From: a virus | IMG/VR virus record: IMGVR_UViG_3300010883_000459 | Coordinates: 1-24,202 of that record | Direction: 5' to 3' (one strand) | DNA: 24,202 nucleotides | In this document: positions 2,504 through 22,873 of the stretch, piece after piece | Position numbering within the stretch: the stretch's first letter is position 1 | Layout: every line of letters begins with the position of its first letter | Notes under the pieces: model-generated | The model's database searches: none | Seen by the model: the letters and a program-made list of their open reading frames with translations, nothing else | What the model was told of the DNA's origin: nothing | Program-made: the position numbers and the translations under genes

Positions 2504-2770
2504 TTAATCGAAGATATCTGTTAAGAAGCTTCTCTTTGGTACATCTTCTGGATTTCTCTCAGCTCTGTACTTGGCGCTATCTAACTCGCGCTTGGTAAGC
2601 ATAATAGGAAACTCTTTTCCGCCATCCTCACAATGAATTACATAATAAATTGTGTTAGCATTGGAGAATTTAGGTTTCTCTGTATTCCATACCTGTAAGA
2701 TATGTCCCTGCTTTACTTTCTCGTCGTTAATTTGATTAGCCATAATTTTAAAGTTTGTACTCTTTGGCAT
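2504..2770 (-). CDS. Hypothetical protein, 88 aa, possibly the 3' part of an interrupted gene
   Basis: I do not recognise the family. The body (WNTEKPKFSNANTIYYVIHC ... PIMLTKRELDSAKYRAERNP) looks like a compact soluble domain ending in a basic helix, and the frame stops with TAA. The start is uncertain: ATG at 2770 (MPKSTN) or GTG at 2779, both without a Shine-Dalgarno. The same frame stays open upstream to a TAA at 2825-2827, and beyond that TAA continues in frame to an ATG at 2887. The stretch before the ATG (GESTPPSQTSEAGVDVGR) reads like a natural protein linker, so the true gene may be 2504-2887 with an in-frame stop. Confidence 0.65.
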   Translation of the reverse strand: MPKSTNFKIMANQINDEKVKQGHILQVWNTEKPKFSNANTIYYVIHCEDGGKEFPIMLTKRELDSAKYRAERNPEDVPKRSFLTDIFD

Positions 2771-2824
2771 TCTACCCACATCTACACCCGCTTCAGATGT
2801 CTGCGAAGGAGGAGTACTTTCTCC

Positions 2825-2887
2825 TTAAGATTGTTGATTGTTTAAATTGGTACTAAGGTTATCTATATTTAGTATATCAGTGTTCAT
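2825..2887 (-). pseudogene. Possible N-terminal part of the 2504 gene, ended by an in-frame TAA
   Basis: An ATG at 2887 opens 20 codons (MNTDILNIDNLS ... NNQQS) that end at TAA 2825-2827. The next codon continues in exactly the same frame, without another stop, into the 88-residue protein at 2504-2770. A CAA to TAA change at that codon would account for it. Against this, a promoter-like sequence (TAATGAAC ... GATATACT) overlaps the first codons, so the segment could instead be an untranslated leader. An AAGGAG follows the TAA but has no start codon at the right distance. Confidence 0.35.
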
Positions 2888-2912
2888 TATGCAACACTTT
2901 TGTTACAAAGTT

Positions 2913-2987
2913 TGGAGCACATTACTGAAATCTAACCAGCTTCATCGGTTTTGCAAACCGCCCCTTATATCAACTAGGTCAATGTGC
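2913..2987 (-). tRNA. tRNA-Cys (anticodon GCA)
   Basis: The cloverleaf is complete over 75 nt. The acceptor GCACATT/AATGTGC pairs over 7 bp, the D arm has stem CCT/AGG, and the anticodon arm is GCGGT-TTGCAAA-ACCGA with U33, GCA and A37. A 4-nt variable loop and the T arm GCTGG-TTAGATT-TCAGT with two wobble pairs follow. U73, the Cys identity base, precedes an encoded CCA. The T loop is unusual (TTAGATT, where TTCGANT is normal). The 5' end overlaps the last 14 bases of the gene at 2974-3231, so the tRNA must be processed out of that transcript or the two compete. Confidence 0.75.
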
Positions 2988-3231
2988 GTTGAAATTCAGA
3001 TGCCATTGGCACACTAAGAATATGATCAATTCCTGTTAGATATTGATCAATATCGTTTGCCATAGCGACAATATCTTCAAATCCACCATTTTCTCCACTT
3101 TCAAATAATTCTGCAGCTAACTCATGAAAATCAAGATTCAATTGTTTCATCTTATCAGCAATTATTTTATCAGGATCATCTTGAGACACTGCTTCATATA
3201 GTCGCTCTAAATTTTTCTTATCTGTGGTCAT
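2974..3231 (-). CDS. Hypothetical protein, 85 aa
   Basis: I do not recognise this protein. It is acidic and predicted helical (MTTDKKNLERLYEAVSQDDP ... ELAAELFESGENGGFEDIVA), without cysteines or membrane segments. Its TAG stop and last four codons lie inside the 5' part of the tRNA-Cys gene. The ATG at 3231 follows a TTAAATA box with 6 intervening bases, which resembles the late-type element of other genes here and supports this start. Confidence 0.7.
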   Translation of the reverse strand: MTTDKKNLERLYEAVSQDDPDKIIADKMKQLNLDFHELAAELFESGENGGFEDIVAMANDIDQYLTGIDHILSVPMASEFQRTLT

Positions 3232-3237
3232 GCTTAT

Positions 3238-3244
3238 TATTTAA
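3238..3244 (-). promoter_or_regulatory. Late-type box (TTAAATA), weak match
   Basis: TTAAATA on the minus strand lies 6 bases before the ATG at 3231. It matches the TAAATA core seen before structural genes, but the first base differs and the spacer is one base longer. Confidence 0.3.
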
Positions 3245-3258
3245 TTGCTATACACTTA

Positions 3259-3519
3259 TTATATTGGATTTCCTTTTGGCCATGGACCCGTAAAGATACG
3301 AGGAATTTTCTTAACAGGTGTGAAATATCCAGGGTCAATGACAACTCCAACATCAAACGCTCCACTTAGTGATGATTGATCGTTCTTCTTCCGGAGGATG
3401 ACAGCACTATATTCGAGGCTGTTTGTGTAAACAAGCATCATAATATCACCATCTTCGTCGTAGAAGCAGTCTCCAGGTTGTATATTGAGTTTCTTCATTG
3501 AATAGCATTGAGAGCTCAT
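3259..3519 (-). CDS. Hypothetical protein, 86 aa, with C-terminal TGPWPKG motif
   Basis: This is a small soluble protein with a beta-rich middle (GDCFYDEDGDIMMLVYTNSL) suggesting a compact barrel-like domain. The C-terminus reads IFTGPWPKGNPI. The TG-x-WP-x-G motif recurs in two other small proteins of this window, at 3594-3815 and 9653-9922. Unlike most genes here it has a clear Shine-Dalgarno (GGAG, 8 bases before ATG 3519), with an AAATAAATA stretch just before it. No function can be assigned. Confidence 0.75.
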   Translation of the reverse strand: MSSQCYSMKKLNIQPGDCFYDEDGDIMMLVYTNSLEYSAVILRKKNDQSSLSGAFDVGVVIDPGYFTPVKKIPRIFTGPWPKGNPI

Positions 3520-3593
3520 GGGCTCTCCTATTTATTTGTCGTTAATTGATAGGTCATTTGATTACTTTGCACTAGTTTAGACCTTAAATACGA

Positions 3594-3815
3594 CTAGTAT
3601 TCTCCGTTGTGTAGGATTCTCACGTCTCCTTGATTATACTTATCAGATTTATTGAACTGTACCATATTAAAGTCATCAACATCTCCAGGAAGTCCTTCAG
3701 CAATTAGTGCTTCATTTAGCTTTTCAGCTGCTTCAACCTTATTTTTAGCTCGAACTACAGCAGCTGCTCCAGTTGGCCAATGCCCTGTAAATGTGTTGTT
3801 AGTATAGATTCTCAT
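3594..3815 (-). CDS. Hypothetical phage-conserved protein, 73 aa, with N-terminal TGHWPTG
   Basis: The N-terminus (MRIYTNNTFTGHWPTGAAAV) is followed by an alanine-rich helix (KNKVEAAEKLNEALIAEGLP) and a strand ending in VRILHNGEY. From memory, small proteins of this pattern occur in other tailed phages, but I cannot name a function. The Trp-Pro motif is shared with two other genes in the window. The ATG at 3815 follows an early-type element with TATAAT 6 bases away, which fixes the start. Confidence 0.75.
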   Translation of the reverse strand: MRIYTNNTFTGHWPTGAAAVVRAKNKVEAAEKLNEALIAEGLPGDVDDFNMVQFNKSDKYNQGDVRILHNGEY

Positions 3816-3819
3816 AATA

Positions 3820-3840
3820 TAATTATATAGGTGTTCCTAA
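3820..3840 (-). promoter_or_regulatory. Early-type promoter-like element
   Basis: The minus strand reads TTAGGAAC, then CACCTA, TATAATTA, and ATG shortly after. It is a member of the AASGAAC plus TATAATTA family. Confidence 0.5.
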
Positions 3841-3877
3841 TTGAAGGTATTCAGGAGATACATCATAGTTCCATAAC

Positions 3878-4291
3878 TTAGCTCCCGGCTCCTAAACGAA
3901 TTAGTGTTCCACCTTGATCGATTTGAATCTCTTCAAGATGCACGTGATGTCCATCATTGTTGCGATGGAAGAATTTGAATACATCTTTCCAAGTAGGATC
4001 GATCATAATAACCTTCTTCTCATCCCAATCCTCGATGACAACTGTCACTCTCTGCAGATCAGCGACCTTCACCTCTGAAATTGCTAGAAGGTCGATCGAC
4101 TTATATCCACCATCAACATCTGATTCATAGATTGACCACCTTGATGCTTGCTCAAATTTGTCACCTCCATAAGTTTCATGGACTGGGACATCCTCTCCCT
4201 CTTCAAACTTTACAAGTTCTTGCCAAATGTTATCTAGCTCTTCATCTTCATAAAGTACTACTCGATGCGCATATTGTTTTTCGAAGTCCAT
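3878..4291 (-). CDS. Hypothetical protein, 137 aa
   Basis: I do not recognise the family. The protein is acidic (pairs such as DEELDN and EEGEDVP), with beta-like segments (VTVVIEDWDEKKVIMIDPTW) and a histidine-rich patch (FHRNNDGHHVHLEEI) near residues 108-122. No membrane segment or signal peptide is visible. The start ATG at 4291 lies 2 bases after the stop of the gene at 4294-4488, so the two are probably co-translated. The ATG is directly preceded by TTAAATAT. Confidence 0.7.
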   Translation of the reverse strand: MDFEKQYAHRVVLYEDEELDNIWQELVKFEEGEDVPVHETYGGDKFEQASRWSIYESDVDGGYKSIDLLAISEVKVADLQRVTVVIEDWDEKKVIMIDPTWKDVFKFFHRNNDGHHVHLEEIQIDQGGTLIRLGAGS

Positions 4292-4293
4292 AT

Positions 4294-4488
4294 TTAATTT
4301 ACATGTTCAAATTCACCTAACTCACAACAACTATTATAGAGATGGCCCATTAAGCTAATTTCTGTTTGAGTTAGCTTATGAGTATTCTTATGGTCGATTT
4401 CACTCGAGTGTGCAAGGATCTGGTAGACAGCATGCATCTCTTCGTGAGTGAGAGTATAAACATATATCTTTTTAGTTTTTCTTTTCAT
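4294..4488 (-). CDS. Hypothetical protein, 64 aa
   Basis: A small basic protein with strand-like beginning (MKRKTKKIYVYTLTHEEMHA) and helical remainder rich in His, plus a Cys pair (NSCCELGE). It has an isolated HEEMH sequence that resembles HExxH by pattern, but nothing else suggests a protease. It is separated from the downstream 137-residue gene by 2 bases, implying translational coupling. An AT-rich segment (AATTTAAATT) lies immediately before the ATG, with no Shine-Dalgarno. Confidence 0.65.
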   Translation of the reverse strand: MKRKTKKIYVYTLTHEEMHAVYQILAHSSEIDHKNTHKLTQTEISLMGHLYNSCCELGEFEHVN

Positions 4489-4505
4489 AATTTAAATTAT
4501 TGGCC

Positions 4506-4520
4506 CTCTTGAGTCAAGAG
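4506..4520. repeat. Perfect 15-base palindrome in a short intergenic segment
   Basis: CTCTTGA-G-TCAAGAG is perfectly self-complementary around one central base. It lies in the 107-base space between the genes at 4294-4488 and 4596-4796. No T-run follows on the minus strand. It could be a protein-binding operator or a weak hairpin. Confidence 0.35.
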
Positions 4521-4595
4521 TAGTTCTTGAAGGCCTAAACACCTCGAGAATTTTGCTTCATCTACTATTACGAGAGGCGCTCAAGGTAAGTTTGT

Positions 4596-13991: not shown

Positions 13992-14447
13992 CTAAGCTAC
14001 GTCTAGGATCTCAAGCGCTTTGTTTGAGAGGTTACTAGTACTTAGTGTACGAACGAACTTTTCCGGAGAGAATTTTTGATGTGTTTCAAACTCTGTGAGA
14101 GCGTTCAATGCATCCCAACGAGTGAGACCAACGTTACCCTTACCAGTTTCAAACAAATCAACCACTTTCTCACGCTTATGAATGAGGCGAGTTGAAGGCT
14201 CCTTGTCATTCTTAGGATCTGGAAGAAGTCTTACAGTCAACTTGATCATTTCATCCTTTGAATACTTAGCGTTACGCAAACGCTCCATTCGAGCACCGAA
14301 GTTAACTACAGTCTTCATATTGCTTTCAAGTCCAGCTACAAACTCATCAACATTTACGTCGAAGTTTGAGTTATGTCGGAGAGTTGATCGAAAGCCGTTC
14401 TCAGCATTAGTTGCTAAGTGTAGTGCATTCGAGCAAACGATACGCAT
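13992..14447 (-). CDS. DUF932-like protein, C-terminal portion, 151 aa
   Basis: The start MRIVCSNALHLAT matches the internal RVVCxNTLxxA motif of DUF932 proteins (phage/plasmid-like family), which normally lies mid-protein. The following helices (EFVAGLESNMKTVVNFGARM) and the tail (RWDALNALTEFETHQ) are consistent with the second half of that family. The N-terminal half is the gene at 14450-14830 in another frame, two bases away. Insertion of one base near 14450 would fuse them as ITPLTMRIVCSN. It is best read as half of a split gene. DUF932 function is not established. Confidence 0.7.
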   Translation of the reverse strand: MRIVCSNALHLATNAENGFRSTLRHNSNFDVNVDEFVAGLESNMKTVVNFGARMERLRNAKYSKDEMIKLTVRLLPDPKNDKEPSTRLIHKREKVVDLFETGKGNVGLTRWDALNALTEFETHQKFSPEKFVRTLSTSNLSNKALEILDVA

Positions 14448-14449
14448 TG

Positions 14450-14830
14450 TTAAGGTGTAATACGATTAGCACTAATTCCTGTGTTATTAATAAGGGTGTA
14501 CAAATACCCTTCAAGTAAATCATCATCTGTCGAGATGATATCATTCATACGAGATTGGATAAGGATTCGTTTTCCATCTCCAACGTATGTATATCCTGTA
14601 TGCTCCACATTACCAAGACGCTCACTAGCGGTATCGATAATGTCCATCATTTCATCAACCTGAATAGGTCGATACTTATCACTACATGTTCCAAAGTGGG
14701 ATCTTGTATCGGAACGCATAATTGAAAATGTGTTCGGCACGATCTTACCTCGTGAATCATATAGTTGCTCTTTTTCCAACTCGAAGGTTGGGACATCGGA
14801 CAGGGACTTAATGTTTTTAATAAATGACAT
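14450..14830 (-). CDS. DUF932-like protein, N-terminal portion, 126 aa
   Basis: The segment DKYRPIQVDEMMDIID corresponds to the conserved YRPIQN-like motif near the start of DUF932 proteins. VGDGKRILIQSRMNDIISTD and LEGYLYTLINNTGISANRIT match the following strands and the TNxHDG-type region. The frame then stops at TAA, exactly where family members continue into RVVCxNTL. That continuation is present in the next gene. Two TATAAT-like boxes precede ATG 14830, one in a full early-type element. Confidence 0.7.
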   Translation of the reverse strand: MSFIKNIKSLSDVPTFELEKEQLYDSRGKIVPNTFSIMRSDTRSHFGTCSDKYRPIQVDEMMDIIDTASERLGNVEHTGYTYVGDGKRILIQSRMNDIISTDDDLLEGYLYTLINNTGISANRITP

Positions 14831-15985: not shown

Positions 15986-16736
15986 CTAAGCTTCGTAACC
16001 AACTGTTACACTAGTTCGACTCTCGATAGCACTAACAACGTTAGCACACTCAAGAAGGCTATCATGAGATCCACAATCAAACCAGTGACCATCTAACTGT
16101 TCGACAAACAATGGTATGTGAGCATTGTTATCCACCAATTTAATGAGGTCAACAATCTCCAATTCACCACGAGCTGAAGGTTTCAATGTTTTAGCTAGTT
16201 CTACAACCTCATTTGAGAATGCATATAATCCTACAACTGCATCATTGCTTACAAACTCTGTAGGCTTTTCAATAATTTGCTCTATCCGTCTTTGCCCACT
16301 ATAAGAGGTATAAGTTGTGATAACACCATAATCTTGAGGATTACTAACATTGTATGAAAATATAGTATTAGTTTCAGCTTTCTCTAGATCACCAGAGTGA
16401 ATAAATACATTATCTCCTAGAATTAGAACCACGTCATCATCCCCAATAAACTCTTCACCTATAATAAATGCTTCTGGAATTCCCTTTGGTGAGTCTTGAA
16501 TCTTAAATGTTATATTTAACGGCTCATCAATAAATAGATTCTTATAGATGTTGCATTGGAGCTCATTAGCTGCAATTATTAGAATCTCATCGACTCCCAT
16601 ATCTAATAGAGTCTGCAATGGATAAAATATCATTGGCTTATTATAAACAGGGAGCATTTGCTTACTCATTACTCTTGTTAGTGGATCTACGAGTTCCGGC
16701 TCCACCTGCCAAGATTATACCTTTACGATTCTTCAT
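15986..16736 (-). CDS. rmlA: Glucose-1-phosphate thymidylyltransferase (RmlA-like), frame-disrupted
   Basis: The enzyme would make dTDP-glucose from glucose-1-phosphate and dTTP. From ATG 16736 the frame reads MKNRKGIILAGGAGTR, the N-terminus with the nucleotide-binding GG-x-GTR loop, and then runs to a stop within a few codons. The rest of the enzyme (DPLTRVMSKQMLPVYNKPMI, later LVLGDN-like LILGDNVF, EKP, SARGELEI, WFDCGSHDSL) continues in another frame. Without the break, that frame could only start at GTG 16705, losing the nucleotide loop. Loss of two bases near 16688 (from a likely CGT-CTA-GAT) explains it and would restore GTRLDPLTR. ATG 16736 overlaps the upstream stop. Confidence 0.85.
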
Positions 16737-17596
16737 TATTTAGAGTAATTTATGAATGCTTGCTCCATTGCTGACGATTCTGATTGAATTTTGAAGTCAG
16801 GGAACATATTCTCAAGCTTATTAATACTAAGTGTACAGTTAGATCGAGGAGCTGTAATTTTCAAATCCTCAATTGGTACCCAGTTCCATAATGGGTTGCG
16901 CATTCCATTACGACTCATGATTTCTGCCACATCTTTAGTGTGTAGCGGTTCTGGATTAACAACATTAATAATACCGACCTCAGCGGCTGTATAATCACTC
17001 ATTATTACTGTTTTTACAAATCTGCACAGATCGGGGATATATGTCTTTGAGTTTTTATAATCTACTAGATCATTATAATTCTTAATCTTTGTAAGATAGC
17101 TACGACCTGTAAAGTCACCGCAAAATGGCATCCGAACGCGAACAATACAGCACTTCTTTGAAATCTCTTCATAAGCATGCTTAGATCTTGAGTAAAATGA
17201 ACATTCAGAATCAACTCCGAAATTAGGAGGATCAGTCTCTTCCCAGGCCTTATCATATCCTGAGAATATACAACCTGATGAGATATGGATATATTCTACA
17301 CCTGTTCTTTCACATACAACATTAACATTGTACGGAACTACAGTATTTAGATTCCAACACTCCCACTTCTTAAGTTCACACTCATCAACATTTGGTCGCC
17401 CTGTAAACCCAGAGCAATTAACAATATGTGTAATATTATTAATGTTTATAAAGGCTTGGAGCGTTCCTCTATGTTGGTAATCTAACTCCGCTCGTGATCT
17501 ATGGAATATATTGATATCCTTTGAGCTCTGTAGGTATTCGTTTAGTTGAGTACCTACATATCCTTTACCTAGGATTAAAATTGTGTGCTTACTCAT
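16736..17596 (-). CDS. rmlD: NAD(P)-dependent sugar-nucleotide reductase, RmlD / NRS-ER-like, 286 aa
   Basis: An extended SDR with an N-terminal Rossmann motif (ILGKGYVGTQL), NCSGFTGRPNVDECE, the SSGCIFSGYD loop, catalytic YSRSK and RVRMPFCGD. The combination GRPNVD, GCIF, a ETDPPNF stretch and APRSNCTLS is unusually close to the eukaryotic and giant-virus NRS/ER enzymes, which do both the 3,5-epimerisation and the 4-reduction to rhamnose. Bacterial RmlD does only the reduction. With no RmlC in the window, a combined role is plausible. An AATAAATA box ends exactly 5 bases before ATG 17596. The stop overlaps the rmlA start. Confidence 0.85.
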   Translation of the reverse strand: MSKHTILILGKGYVGTQLNEYLQSSKDINIFHRSRAELDYQHRGTLQAFININNITHIVNCSGFTGRPNVDECELKKWECWNLNTVVPYNVNVVCERTGVEYIHISSGCIFSGYDKAWEETDPPNFGVDSECSFYSRSKHAYEEISKKCCIVRVRMPFCGDFTGRSYLTKIKNYNDLVDYKNSKTYIPDLCRFVKTVIMSDYTAAEVGIINVVNPEPLHTKDVAEIMSRNGMRNPLWNWVPIEDLKITAPRSNCTLSINKLENMFPDFKIQSESSAMEQAFINYSK

Positions 17597-18679: not shown

Positions 18680-19591
18680 TTAGTAATACTCACCATAAAT
18701 ATCTGTAGGATTACCTGACATGTCAAATACCTCCTCTACAGAATTTACATCTACATCATGCTCATATGATTTATCAGGTGATCTGTATGATTCACCCCAT
18801 AGTTCAGGGCTATCCCACAATTCTGGAGCGATCCATATATTGGTGGTAGTAGTTCCAGTAAACTCGTTATCATACACCTGCTCATTTCCAGCTTCTTGAG
18901 GTGCTCTTGTAATTAGAGGAGCTCCAGGTTCGAATGAATGTTCATATCTCTTAGCTCTCAATCTCCATGTATAATGTCCAAGCATTGGATTCATAGATGA
19001 AAGATCTTGATCATCCTCTTCTGTAACTTGGAAGATCTTAGCACCTCGATTACCTGGACGATCACAGCCTAATATTGCTAGTTCAATTAGATCGCCAGCT
19101 TTTGGCTCCACATCTTGATTGTTACTTAAGTGTGGTGTATCAATCTTAAGCAGATCAAATATATCAGCAGCAGTTAGTACCGCTCCATTATCTGTATAGA
19201 TATTAAAGTTTGTACCACTCATTGTCTCCATGAAGGTATCAATATGGACGAACCCTGTAAATGAATCATCAGACTCAAATCCGAAACTTGCTAATGAAAT
19301 TGCATCTTCCTGCAACTCAACATACATCATTAATGGAATCGGTCCATAAAATTTTGCTAGGGGCTCCTCACCATATAATAGGTCAGCAGTTTCAATATTG
19401 AACGTATTAATATAATAGTTGACAGGAATGCCTCGAGAGTTAATCAGATCCTTGAATGCGCTGTCGTAGATCAGTTGTTCAGCATTATAGTTAATAGGGT
19501 TAGTAATCATCGCGCAAGGGGGAGACGCCAAAGCTCCAAAGACTTCTTCAGCTGTGCATTCCTTACGAGTTGTGTTACATGGTGCAGCCAT
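18680..19591 (-). CDS. Neck protein resembling T4 gp14, 303 aa
   Basis: Likely a head-to-tail joining protein. The N-terminal region NAEQLIYDSAFKDLINSRGI, VNYYINTFNIETADLLYGEE and the later EPKAGDLIELAIL with FQVTEEDDQDLSSMNPMLGH follow the same order as T4 gp14 ([20 protein letters not shown] ... LIFGED ... PKEGDLIYFPM ... FEINWVEPYDPFYQLG). The C-terminal part is acidic and probably flexible. Similarity is at motif level from memory, so the assignment is likely but not proven. It lies next to the 111-residue gene and near the terminase, as in T4-like late clusters. Confidence 0.65.
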   Translation of the reverse strand: MAAPCNTTRKECTAEEVFGALASPPCAMITNPINYNAEQLIYDSAFKDLINSRGIPVNYYINTFNIETADLLYGEEPLAKFYGPIPLMMYVELQEDAISLASFGFESDDSFTGFVHIDTFMETMSGTNFNIYTDNGAVLTAADIFDLLKIDTPHLSNNQDVEPKAGDLIELAILGCDRPGNRGAKIFQVTEEDDQDLSSMNPMLGHYTWRLRAKRYEHSFEPGAPLITRAPQEAGNEQVYDNEFTGTTTTNIWIAPELWDSPELWGESYRSPDKSYEHDVDVNSVEEVFDMSGNPTDIYGEYY

Positions 19592-19940: not shown

Positions 19941-19951
19941 TCAATGTACAC

Positions 19952-19981
19952 AAAAAAGCCGTTGACTTACATCAACGGCTT
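19952..19981 (-). terminator. Rho-independent terminator after the acidic structural gene
   Basis: On the minus strand AAGCCGTTGA and TCAACGGCTT form a perfect stem with a 6-base loop, followed by TTTTTT. It lies 20 bases beyond the TAA that closes the 77-codon extension of the 20236 gene. Its position suggests the extension belongs to the transcript. Confidence 0.9.
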
Positions 19982-20001
19982 AATTAAGTTTTATTCTAAC
20001 C

Positions 20002-20235
20002 TTATTGACCGAACATGCTCTTACCCTGCTTGAGAGTTCCGACCTTGTTCTTAGTTCCCATATTAGGTGCTTTACCGCTTGTGATTGCGTGTCCATGATC
20101 TCCATCATTTCCTTGCTTATCAGTATATGCGCTAGAAGCTGTTCCTCCAGTAGGCTTTACATCGCTATTACCAACTTTGTTTTGCTTTCCGTCATTTACT
20201 GATCCAGGGCTTGAAACTGCGGTTCCGAGAGTTTC
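20002..20235 (-). pseudogene. 77-codon in-frame extension of the acidic structural gene after a TAA
   Basis: Directly after the TAA of the 304-residue gene the same frame stays open for 77 codons (ETLGTAVSSPGSVNDGKQNK ... KVGTLKQGKSMFGQ) to a second TAA at 20002-20004. No ATG, GTG or TTG occurs before a Met near the end, so it cannot easily be a separate gene. The composition (Gly, Ser, Lys, Asn and Asp) reads like a flexible protein tail. Either the first TAA is a mutation or sequence error, or it is read through at some rate. Confidence 0.55.
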
Positions 20236-21150
20236 TTAATCTTCTTCGAAGTCACCACTAAATCCATCTTCTTCACCACCTTCAAGACCTTCTTCTCCAC
20301 CTTCGAGACCTTCTTCACCACCAACAGCAGATTGTAGAAGCTCAAGAAGTTGCTTAGCAACGTCAACGTTTAGAGTTAGTGTAACCTCTTCGAGATCACC
20401 TTCACCTTCACCTTCATCGTCAATACCTAGAGCGTCTAATTCTTCATTATCAACTCCTGCATCTTCGTCGCCGAACATTACACCTTCATAAAGCTTATCA
20501 AAAACAGATTTTTTATTCTTCATGAAATTATTTATGCTCTCCTTGACAACTTCTTTGAGTTCTTCATTAACTTCTTCATCAACTTCTGCATCAACTTCCT
20601 CATCTTCAAATCTATCTTGGCTGGTGGGTATCTCTCCATCCTCATCCTTCATATTAAAATGATTCCAGATGTTAATTGAGTAGTCACTTGCTTCTGGATT
20701 TGGAGTAGGGGCGTTAGATAGGTAATATTCACGCTCTGCATCGGAAGTCTCATGAGACTTCCACTTAGCTTGAAGATCGCTAGATGGTCCTGGACGGTTA
20801 GATGCTATCACAGGTGATGGCTTATTACCTCTCTGCATATTCTCTTCGGCGGCACGTTCAGATTTCCTATTAGGAGATGGGAACCCGCTTGATTGGCGAC
20901 GGGATGTTGACTCTTCATCTTCATCATATGAGAGCTTATTAATTCCATACGCACTTTCAATATCCGGATTGAGTTTATTATCGACTTGATGCTCCTCCCA
21001 ACCTTCAGCAGTTTCAGGACCACCTTTTAATAGAGGTGAATCACCAATTTCTTGCTTCTCTTTGGACTCTTTAACTACCTGAACATTGTTTAGCATCGCG
21101 CCGTAAACATCTCCAATTGAACCAAGTTGGTTAGCTTTTCTCTTAGACAT
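20236..21150 (-). CDS. Acidic prohead-core/virion-like protein, 304 aa
   Basis: The N-terminal half is polar and low complexity (Ser, Pro, Asn, Glu). The C-terminal part has a helix NFMKNKKSVFDKLYEGVMFG, an acidic stretch (VDNEELDALGIDDEGEGEGD), a short hydrophobic strand-helix unit (VTLTLNVDVAKQLLELLQSA) and a GGEEGLEGGEEGLEGGEE repeat. Such acidic proteins beside T4-like terminase genes are usually prohead core or internal virion proteins, though no named T4 counterpart is certain. The frame ends with TAA, yet continues open for 77 codons afterwards. A CATAAATA box precedes ATG 21150 by exactly 5 bases and overlaps the divergent terminase promoter. Confidence 0.6.
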   Translation of the reverse strand: MSKRKANQLGSIGDVYGAMLNNVQVVKESKEKQEIGDSPLLKGGPETAEGWEEHQVDNKLNPDIESAYGINKLSYDEDEESTSRRQSSGFPSPNRKSERAAEENMQRGNKPSPVIASNRPGPSSDLQAKWKSHETSDAEREYYLSNAPTPNPEASDYSINIWNHFNMKDEDGEIPTSQDRFEDEEVDAEVDEEVNEELKEVVKESINNFMKNKKSVFDKLYEGVMFGDEDAGVDNEELDALGIDDEGEGEGDLEEVTLTLNVDVAKQLLELLQSAVGGEEGLEGGEEGLEGGEEDGFSGDFEED

Positions 21151-21157: not shown

Positions 21158-21163
21158 TTTATG
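21156..21163 (-). promoter_or_regulatory. Late-type box CATAAATA on the opposite strand
   Basis: It is the divergent partner of the terminase box. It lies exactly 5 bases before ATG 21150 of the acidic structural gene and overlaps the terminase start codon. Confidence 0.55.
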
Positions 21164-22873
21164 AAAATGTCAACTAAAGCCTACAAGAATGAATACTATT
21201 TAGGAAATAAAAAATTACCTAATAAGAATTGGCAGGGAGAATATACTAGTAAGCAAGTTAAACAGCTACAAAAATCTATACGTAACCTATTATACTTCGC
21301 AGAGAGTTTCTTTTATATTATTGATCCGGATTCCACTCCACCAAAGCAGGTAATTAAATTGTACCCATATCAAAAGAAGTCGCTTAGGATGTTACGAGAT
21401 CATCGGAAGTGTCTATTACTAGCTTCTAGACAGATTGGTAAGACAACAGTTCTGACAATTTACGCCTTATGGGTTGCACTATTCAATGATTATCAGAATA
21501 TTGTTATTGTTGCTAACAAAGAGGCAACAGCTGTAGAGATCTTTAGAAGAATACGACTTGCATACGAAGAAATGCCTAATTGGGTTAAGTGTGGTGTTAA
21601 GGAATACGGTAAAACTTCATGTGAATTTGAAAATGGTTCGAGGATTAGTATTAGTACAACGACTGGTAGTGCTGCTCGTGGACAATCGATTACATGCCTA
21701 TTAATTGATGAAATGGGCTTCATTGAGCCTGAATCAATTCTTGAAGACTTCTGGCGTTCAGTATTCCCTACAATTTCACGCTCTGAGAATTCAAAGGTTC
21801 TTATCGCTTCTACTCCAAATGGTACAGGTAACCTATTCCACACATTATGTGATGGAGCTGAGAAGGAGGTAAATGGCTTTGTAATTGATAAAGTGTATTG
21901 GCATGATGTGCCAGGACGTGGAGAGGAATGGAGAGAGGAGCAAATCCGAGCTCTTGGTAGTGTTGAGTCATTTAATCAGGAGTACAACTGCTCATTCATT
22001 GCTACTGGAGACTCAGCTATTGATGAAGATCTATTCTATGATCTATCTAAGAATTGTGAATCTCCAAAGATTATATTAGATGATGGCCATTATAAGATAT
22101 GGGAAGAGCCTCAAGCTGATAAACATTATGTAATTGGAGTTGATGTATCTGAAGGTGTTGGTCAAGATGCTTCTGTTGCTCAAATCTTTGATATTACAGA
22201 TATCTCTGATATGAAGCAGGTTGCAGTTTATCATAACAACCAAATACCGCCATTAGAGTTTACAAACAAACTATATAGTATATTAGGCAACTGGGGAAAT
22301 CCACTAGTGCTAATTGAACGCAATAACTGCGGAGCTCAAGTAGTTGATCGAATATTCCATGATTACGGCTACGAAAAGGTTGTATCATATGGAGCTAAAA
22401 CAGCAGGTCGCTCAAAACCTCAAATTGGAATGATTGCTCATACAAACACCAAATATAAAGGTGTATTGAATATGAGGTACTTTGTAAGTGAAATGCGAGC
22501 TGTAACATTCAAAGATATTGAGACATTGAAAGAGTTTAAGAACTTTGTTAGATATCCAAATGGTACATGGAAGGCTAGAGGTGGTTATCATGATGATCGG
22601 GTAATGTCCACACTATATACACTGTTCATTCTTGAGAAGGAGTTGACAGAGCAATATTATGATATACTTGAGTTGGATGATCACGGAAAGCCTAAATCTA
22701 TCGAGGTTATGGATTATGGAGTTCAGAATTTTGTAAATCCTACATCAATATACTCTGATAATGAGATTGTAGGTGAAGCCAATCAGCGAATGGTTCCAGT
22801 TGTCTTTGGTATGGATGATGTTGGTGATGATTTTGGTGAACTTGAAGGTCTTGGTTATGAGCTTCTATACTAA
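21161..22873 (+). CDS. terL: Large terminase subunit, T4 gp17-like, 570 aa
   Basis: The DNA-packaging motor ATPase and headful nuclease. The N-terminal ATPase has Walker A LASRQIGKTTVL (about residues 88-99), ISTTTGSAARGQS, Walker B CLLIDEMGF with catalytic Glu (about 179-187) and the coupling motif IASTPNGTGN. The C-terminal RNase H-like nuclease has VIGVDVSEGVGQDAS (first Asp), VLIERNNCGAQVVD (Glu) and GGYHDDRVMSTLY (Asp). All key residues are present and the length fits gp17 (610). The gene runs opposite to most of the window from a shared divergent control site. The second ATG (21167) is an alternative start. Confidence 0.95.
   Translation: MKMSTKAYKNEYYLGNKKLPNKNWQGEYTSKQVKQLQKSIRNLLYFAESFFYIIDPDSTPPKQVIKLYPYQKKSLRMLRDHRKCLLLASRQIGKTTVLTIYALWVALFNDYQNIVIVANKEATAVEIFRRIRLAYEEMPNWVKCGVKEYGKTSCEFENGSRISISTTTGSAARGQSITCLLIDEMGFIEPESILEDFWRSVFPTISRSENSKVLIASTPNGTGNLFHTLCDGAEKEVNGFVIDKVYWHDVPGRGEEWREEQIRALGSVESFNQEYNCSFIATGDSAIDEDLFYDLSKNCESPKIILDDGHYKIWEEPQADKHYVIGVDVSEGVGQDASVAQIFDITDISDMKQVAVYHNNQIPPLEFTNKLYSILGNWGNPLVLIERNNCGAQVVDRIFHDYGYEKVVSYGAKTAGRSKPQIGMIAHTNTKYKGVLNMRYFVSEMRAVTFKDIETLKEFKNFVRYPNGTWKARGGYHDDRVMSTLYTLFILEKELTEQYYDILELDDHGKPKSIEVMDYGVQNFVNPTSIYSDNEIVGEANQRMVPVVFGMDDVGDDFGELEGLGYELLY

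Follow-up and report, generated by a model that had tools for sequence, protein, structure and literature searches.

An in-frame TAA in the gene for an acidic protein of the window – the whole stretch of viral DNA that was analysed, 24,202 nt – is probably a real and recent nonsense allele of the ordinary kind, which would leave a truncated protein of 304 aa without its conserved 77-residue tail, and not a readthrough system. The tail is ancestral, the other relatives of the gene are open in frame at this site, and the TAA is present in two records. The features concerned are listed in Table 1.

Table 1. Features at the interrupted gene and its neighbours in the window.
Feature	Position	Strand	Remark
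Acidic protein as translated to the stop, 304 aa	20239..21150	(-)	N-terminal part of an uncharacterised T4-like-phage protein family
In-frame TAA replacing the relatives' Glu codon (third of the EEDEE motif)	20236..20238	(-)	
77-codon tail with GKxNKVG repeats, end GKSMFGQ	20005..20235	(-)	homologous to the relatives' C-terminus
TAA terminating the full-length reading frame	20002..20004	(-)	
Rho-independent-type terminator hairpin and U-run, past the tail	19951..19985	(-)	
T4-like terminase large subunit, divergent neighbour	21161..22873	(+)	query used to find relatives
Head closure Hc2 (gp14-like neck) protein, neighbour	18680..19591	(-)	

The ORF at 20236–21150(-) encodes 304 aa, including 77 D+E and 29 K+R, and its C-terminal end reads GAAGAAGAT-TAA, i.e. 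...GDFEED followed by the stop. The preliminary description was right that a TAA splits the frame but placed it at 20233–20235, which is the next codon, GAA; the true stop is at 20236–20238. The rest of its account of this segment was borne out. Past the stop, 77 sense codons follow in frame, reading ETLGTAVSSPGSVNDGKQNKVGNSDVKPTGG...KSMFGQ, before a second TAA. The tail has no usable start codon – its earliest in-frame ATG is codon 59, and GTG and TTG are absent before it – and a strong terminator lies just past it, a hairpin followed by a U-run with a folding energy of −19.1 kcal/mol (z −5.1). A separate gene, already thought unlikely, was ruled out, since the only start is at codon 59 and the relatives carry the tail as the C-terminus of a single protein. 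Under a first-order Markov model of the window, a stretch of 77 codons would stay open by chance in ca. 0.4% of cases. Two further ORFs of the window continue in frame past their stops, for 77 and 130 codons, which appears to be due to same-frame neighbouring genes, so the openness of the tail alone is little proof. By sequence comparison, the decisive evidence for a real observation is the homology of the tail to the C-termini of the relatives.

When the main part and the tail were used as direct queries, a single near-identical record was recovered. With the divergent terminase as query, 73 loci were found, 59 of them with a homologue of the acidic protein, and profile searches raised the family to 222 loci, representing 138 distinct DNA stretches of viral contigs. 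The family protein is encoded divergently from the T4-like terminase. At the loci found through the terminase the homologues are, with few exceptions, continuous, so that acidic part, EED-EE and tail follow one another in one protein; the conserved EEDEE motif spans the stop position, and the family tail is rich in GKNNKVG. The preliminary description had proposed a comparison with homologues, and the tail is indeed found at the C-termini of the nearer relatives, with 48–60% identity and E values down to 2e-25. Nor do the homologues end where the window has its TAA, with an unconserved segment downstream: 204 of the 222 loci end uninterrupted in the conserved tail, and the tail motif ends 204 of the 207 whose hit frame finishes inside the contig; of the three that lack it there, one is locus L053 and the other two belong to the near-identical record.

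No usable family match for the acidic protein was found in PHROGs, Pfam, NCBIfam or PDB sequences, three family members having a weak PHROGs match to phrog_24078, of unknown function. No relatives were detectable in cultured phage records, and none were found in GTDB genome contigs. An AlphaFold model of the protein is mostly disordered (mean pLDDT 48). In the family alignment (A1), the middle linker of several members contains DxDxDG-like segments (DYDGDGKVES, DLDKDGNKKES) that resemble EF-hand or dockerin calcium loops, with only weak Pfam matches.

At the site of the stop, all eight of the nearest relatives that were read (L005, L006, L007, L010, L012, L015, L017 and L032) have GAA, and Glu is present in every complete relative in the alignment, at an otherwise invariant position of EEDEE. 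The intact sense codon of the relatives is thus one base away from the stop, which identifies the window's TAA as a single G-to-T nonsense change. A degenerate scan for the junction, with any first base allowed, found only the near-identical record and the contig of L032. The former, IMGVR_UViG_3300009420_002446, has the same TAA and differs from the window at 2 of 4,234 positions, both of them synonymous third-position transitions. On these alignments the stop is judged private to the window's lineage of T4-like phage.

The tail behind the stop has not decayed. Of the 18 tail columns that are invariant elsewhere it departs from two, as many as L009, L016 and L032 do, and the terminal branch of the window is 0.31 in the tail against 0.88 in the main part. 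The absence of decay implies that the stop is recent or that the tail is still made: the short tail branch and the retained conserved positions are as expected of a recent stop, and an undecayed tail is equally expected under suppression or readthrough. The age of the stop is not datable because the nearest relatives without it are only about 50% identical.

Other nonsense codons occur in the family and beside it. L044 (and also L096) has a separate allele, with TAA in place of the GAA of L038, which looks young too, as dN/dS past the stop (0.14–0.19) lies inside the range of intact pairs (0.09–0.25). L053 has TAG where L054 has Glu, and the three family stops sit at three different places. 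Two more nonsense codons were found in terminase genes of related contigs, L112 and L165 (Glu to stop in L165). The acidic family has 3 stops in 42,244 codons and four neighbouring genes have 2 in 136,795, a difference with p between 0.07 and 0.26, depending on the weighting, in a comparison prompted by the window's own stop. Enrichment of stops in the acidic family was therefore rejected, the excess not being significant, and the nonsense codons of the acidic family and the terminase are at background level.

Of the three readings offered in the preliminary description, a nonsense mutation is favoured by the Glu of the relatives and by the second record, which also speaks against a base-call error, while nothing positive was found for readthrough. 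A sequencing or assembly error, with Glu as the true codon and a full-length protein, is unlikely but carries some weight. G-to-T is a common damage artefact, and the terminase nonsense codons of L165 and L112 suggest a background of errors. Two other window genes are broken by frameshifts, which casts doubt on the sequence quality of the window: a DUF932 gene (13992–14830(-)) lies in two ORFs in different frames, matching positions 3–76 and 85–212 of Pfam PF06067, with the shift near 14450, and an RmlA-like nucleotidyltransferase gene (15986–16740(-)) encodes its N-terminal GIILAGGAGTR motif out of frame with the remainder, with the shift near 16690–16705. Exact-match scans found no second record of either frameshifted region. 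Against an error stands the same TAA in a second record that has its own two synonymous differences, which makes a random or independent base-call error unlikely, though that record may share its sample or reads with the window.

Functional readthrough or ochre suppression, in which a minor full-length form would be made and selected, is very improbable. The undecayed tail would fit it, as would three independent in-frame stops in the family with intact sequence downstream. Programmed readthrough goes with a conserved stop and a conserved extension; here the extension is conserved and the stop site is Glu, the stop being lineage-private and the other family stops lying elsewhere. It also goes with a leaky stop or a stimulatory structure. 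The stop is TAA followed by G, and of the three stop codons TAA is the one least prone to leak in bacteria. No RNA structure was found beside it, the surrounding 121 nt folding no better than shuffles (z +0.69), and structure-stimulated recoding was rejected on this ground. Reassignment of TAA, which would leave it unused as a terminator and frequent in frame, was likewise rejected: TAA is the main terminator of the window, ending 30 of the 39 listed ORFs. ARAGORN and Rfam found no suppressor tRNA for UAA within the 24,202 nt, and the candidate was rejected for the window, whose only tRNA is a tRNA-Cys(GCA) at 2916–2987(-), with encoded CCA, an Rfam score of 35.3 bits and the anticodon loop UUGCAAA, missed by ARAGORN. 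The window is a partial genome, so these results do not disprove low-level suppression. That the family repeatedly gains in-frame stops suppressed at a low level, with truncated and full-length forms both used in particle assembly, is rated lower still. The lack of significant stop enrichment over the control genes weighs against functional readthrough or ochre suppression. Least probable is a stable adaptive loss of the tail, with the shorter protein fixed as the working form of the lineage: the stop is common to two records, but the decay of the tail expected in this case is absent.

Under the preferred reading, a recent nonsense allele, the ancestral gene would have encoded one protein of ca. 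382 residues, in which a G-to-T change converted a conserved Glu codon of EEDEE to TAA. Ribosomes would stop after 304 residues, with TAA terminating normally, and the glycine/lysine-rich tail of 77 residues would be lost. The truncated protein may serve well enough, or the allele may be young and slightly harmful, with too little time so far for the tail to decay.

The gene is surrounded by those for the T4-like terminase, a gp14-like neck protein and the tail tube, which makes a part in head assembly or packaging plausible. The label of structural or virion protein is putative and unproven, this neighbourhood alone pointing to it. In L009, two gp14-like neck protein genes lie in tandem (2717–4521). 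The terminase gene is split near residue 179–180 by roughly 1.3–1.6 kb, a candidate intron or intein, in L066, L072 and L073, with an additional interruption near residue 95–98 in L072 and L073; Rfam gave no intron match for the interrupted terminase of L066 or L072. A 111-aa gene of the window has a 357-aa counterpart in L026 (3834–4907), whose long extra N-terminal part is, by eye only, nucleotidyltransferase-like.

Two points are of wider interest: a widespread, unannotated acidic family with a strongly conserved C-terminal tail lies beside the terminase in uncultured T4-like phages, and in metagenomic phage contigs an extension that looks conserved beyond a stop codon may reflect a nonsense allele private to one lineage. 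Among known systems, the window most resembles an ordinary nonsense (ochre) allele of a phage, in which one base turns a Glu codon into TAA in one lineage and the downstream frame stays intact; the sole difference is that the stop of the window is common to two near-identical records. Programmed readthrough of a phage structural protein, as in Qbeta A1, takes place at UGA. The window shares with it a major short form and a potential in-frame extension of the C-terminus, but its stop is TAA, is unconserved in relatives and has no detected stimulatory structure. The crAss-like phages that use code 15 and read TAG as Gln (PMC9523058) also have in-frame stops within coding sequence, whereas the window has a lone in-frame stop and uses TAA as its normal terminator.
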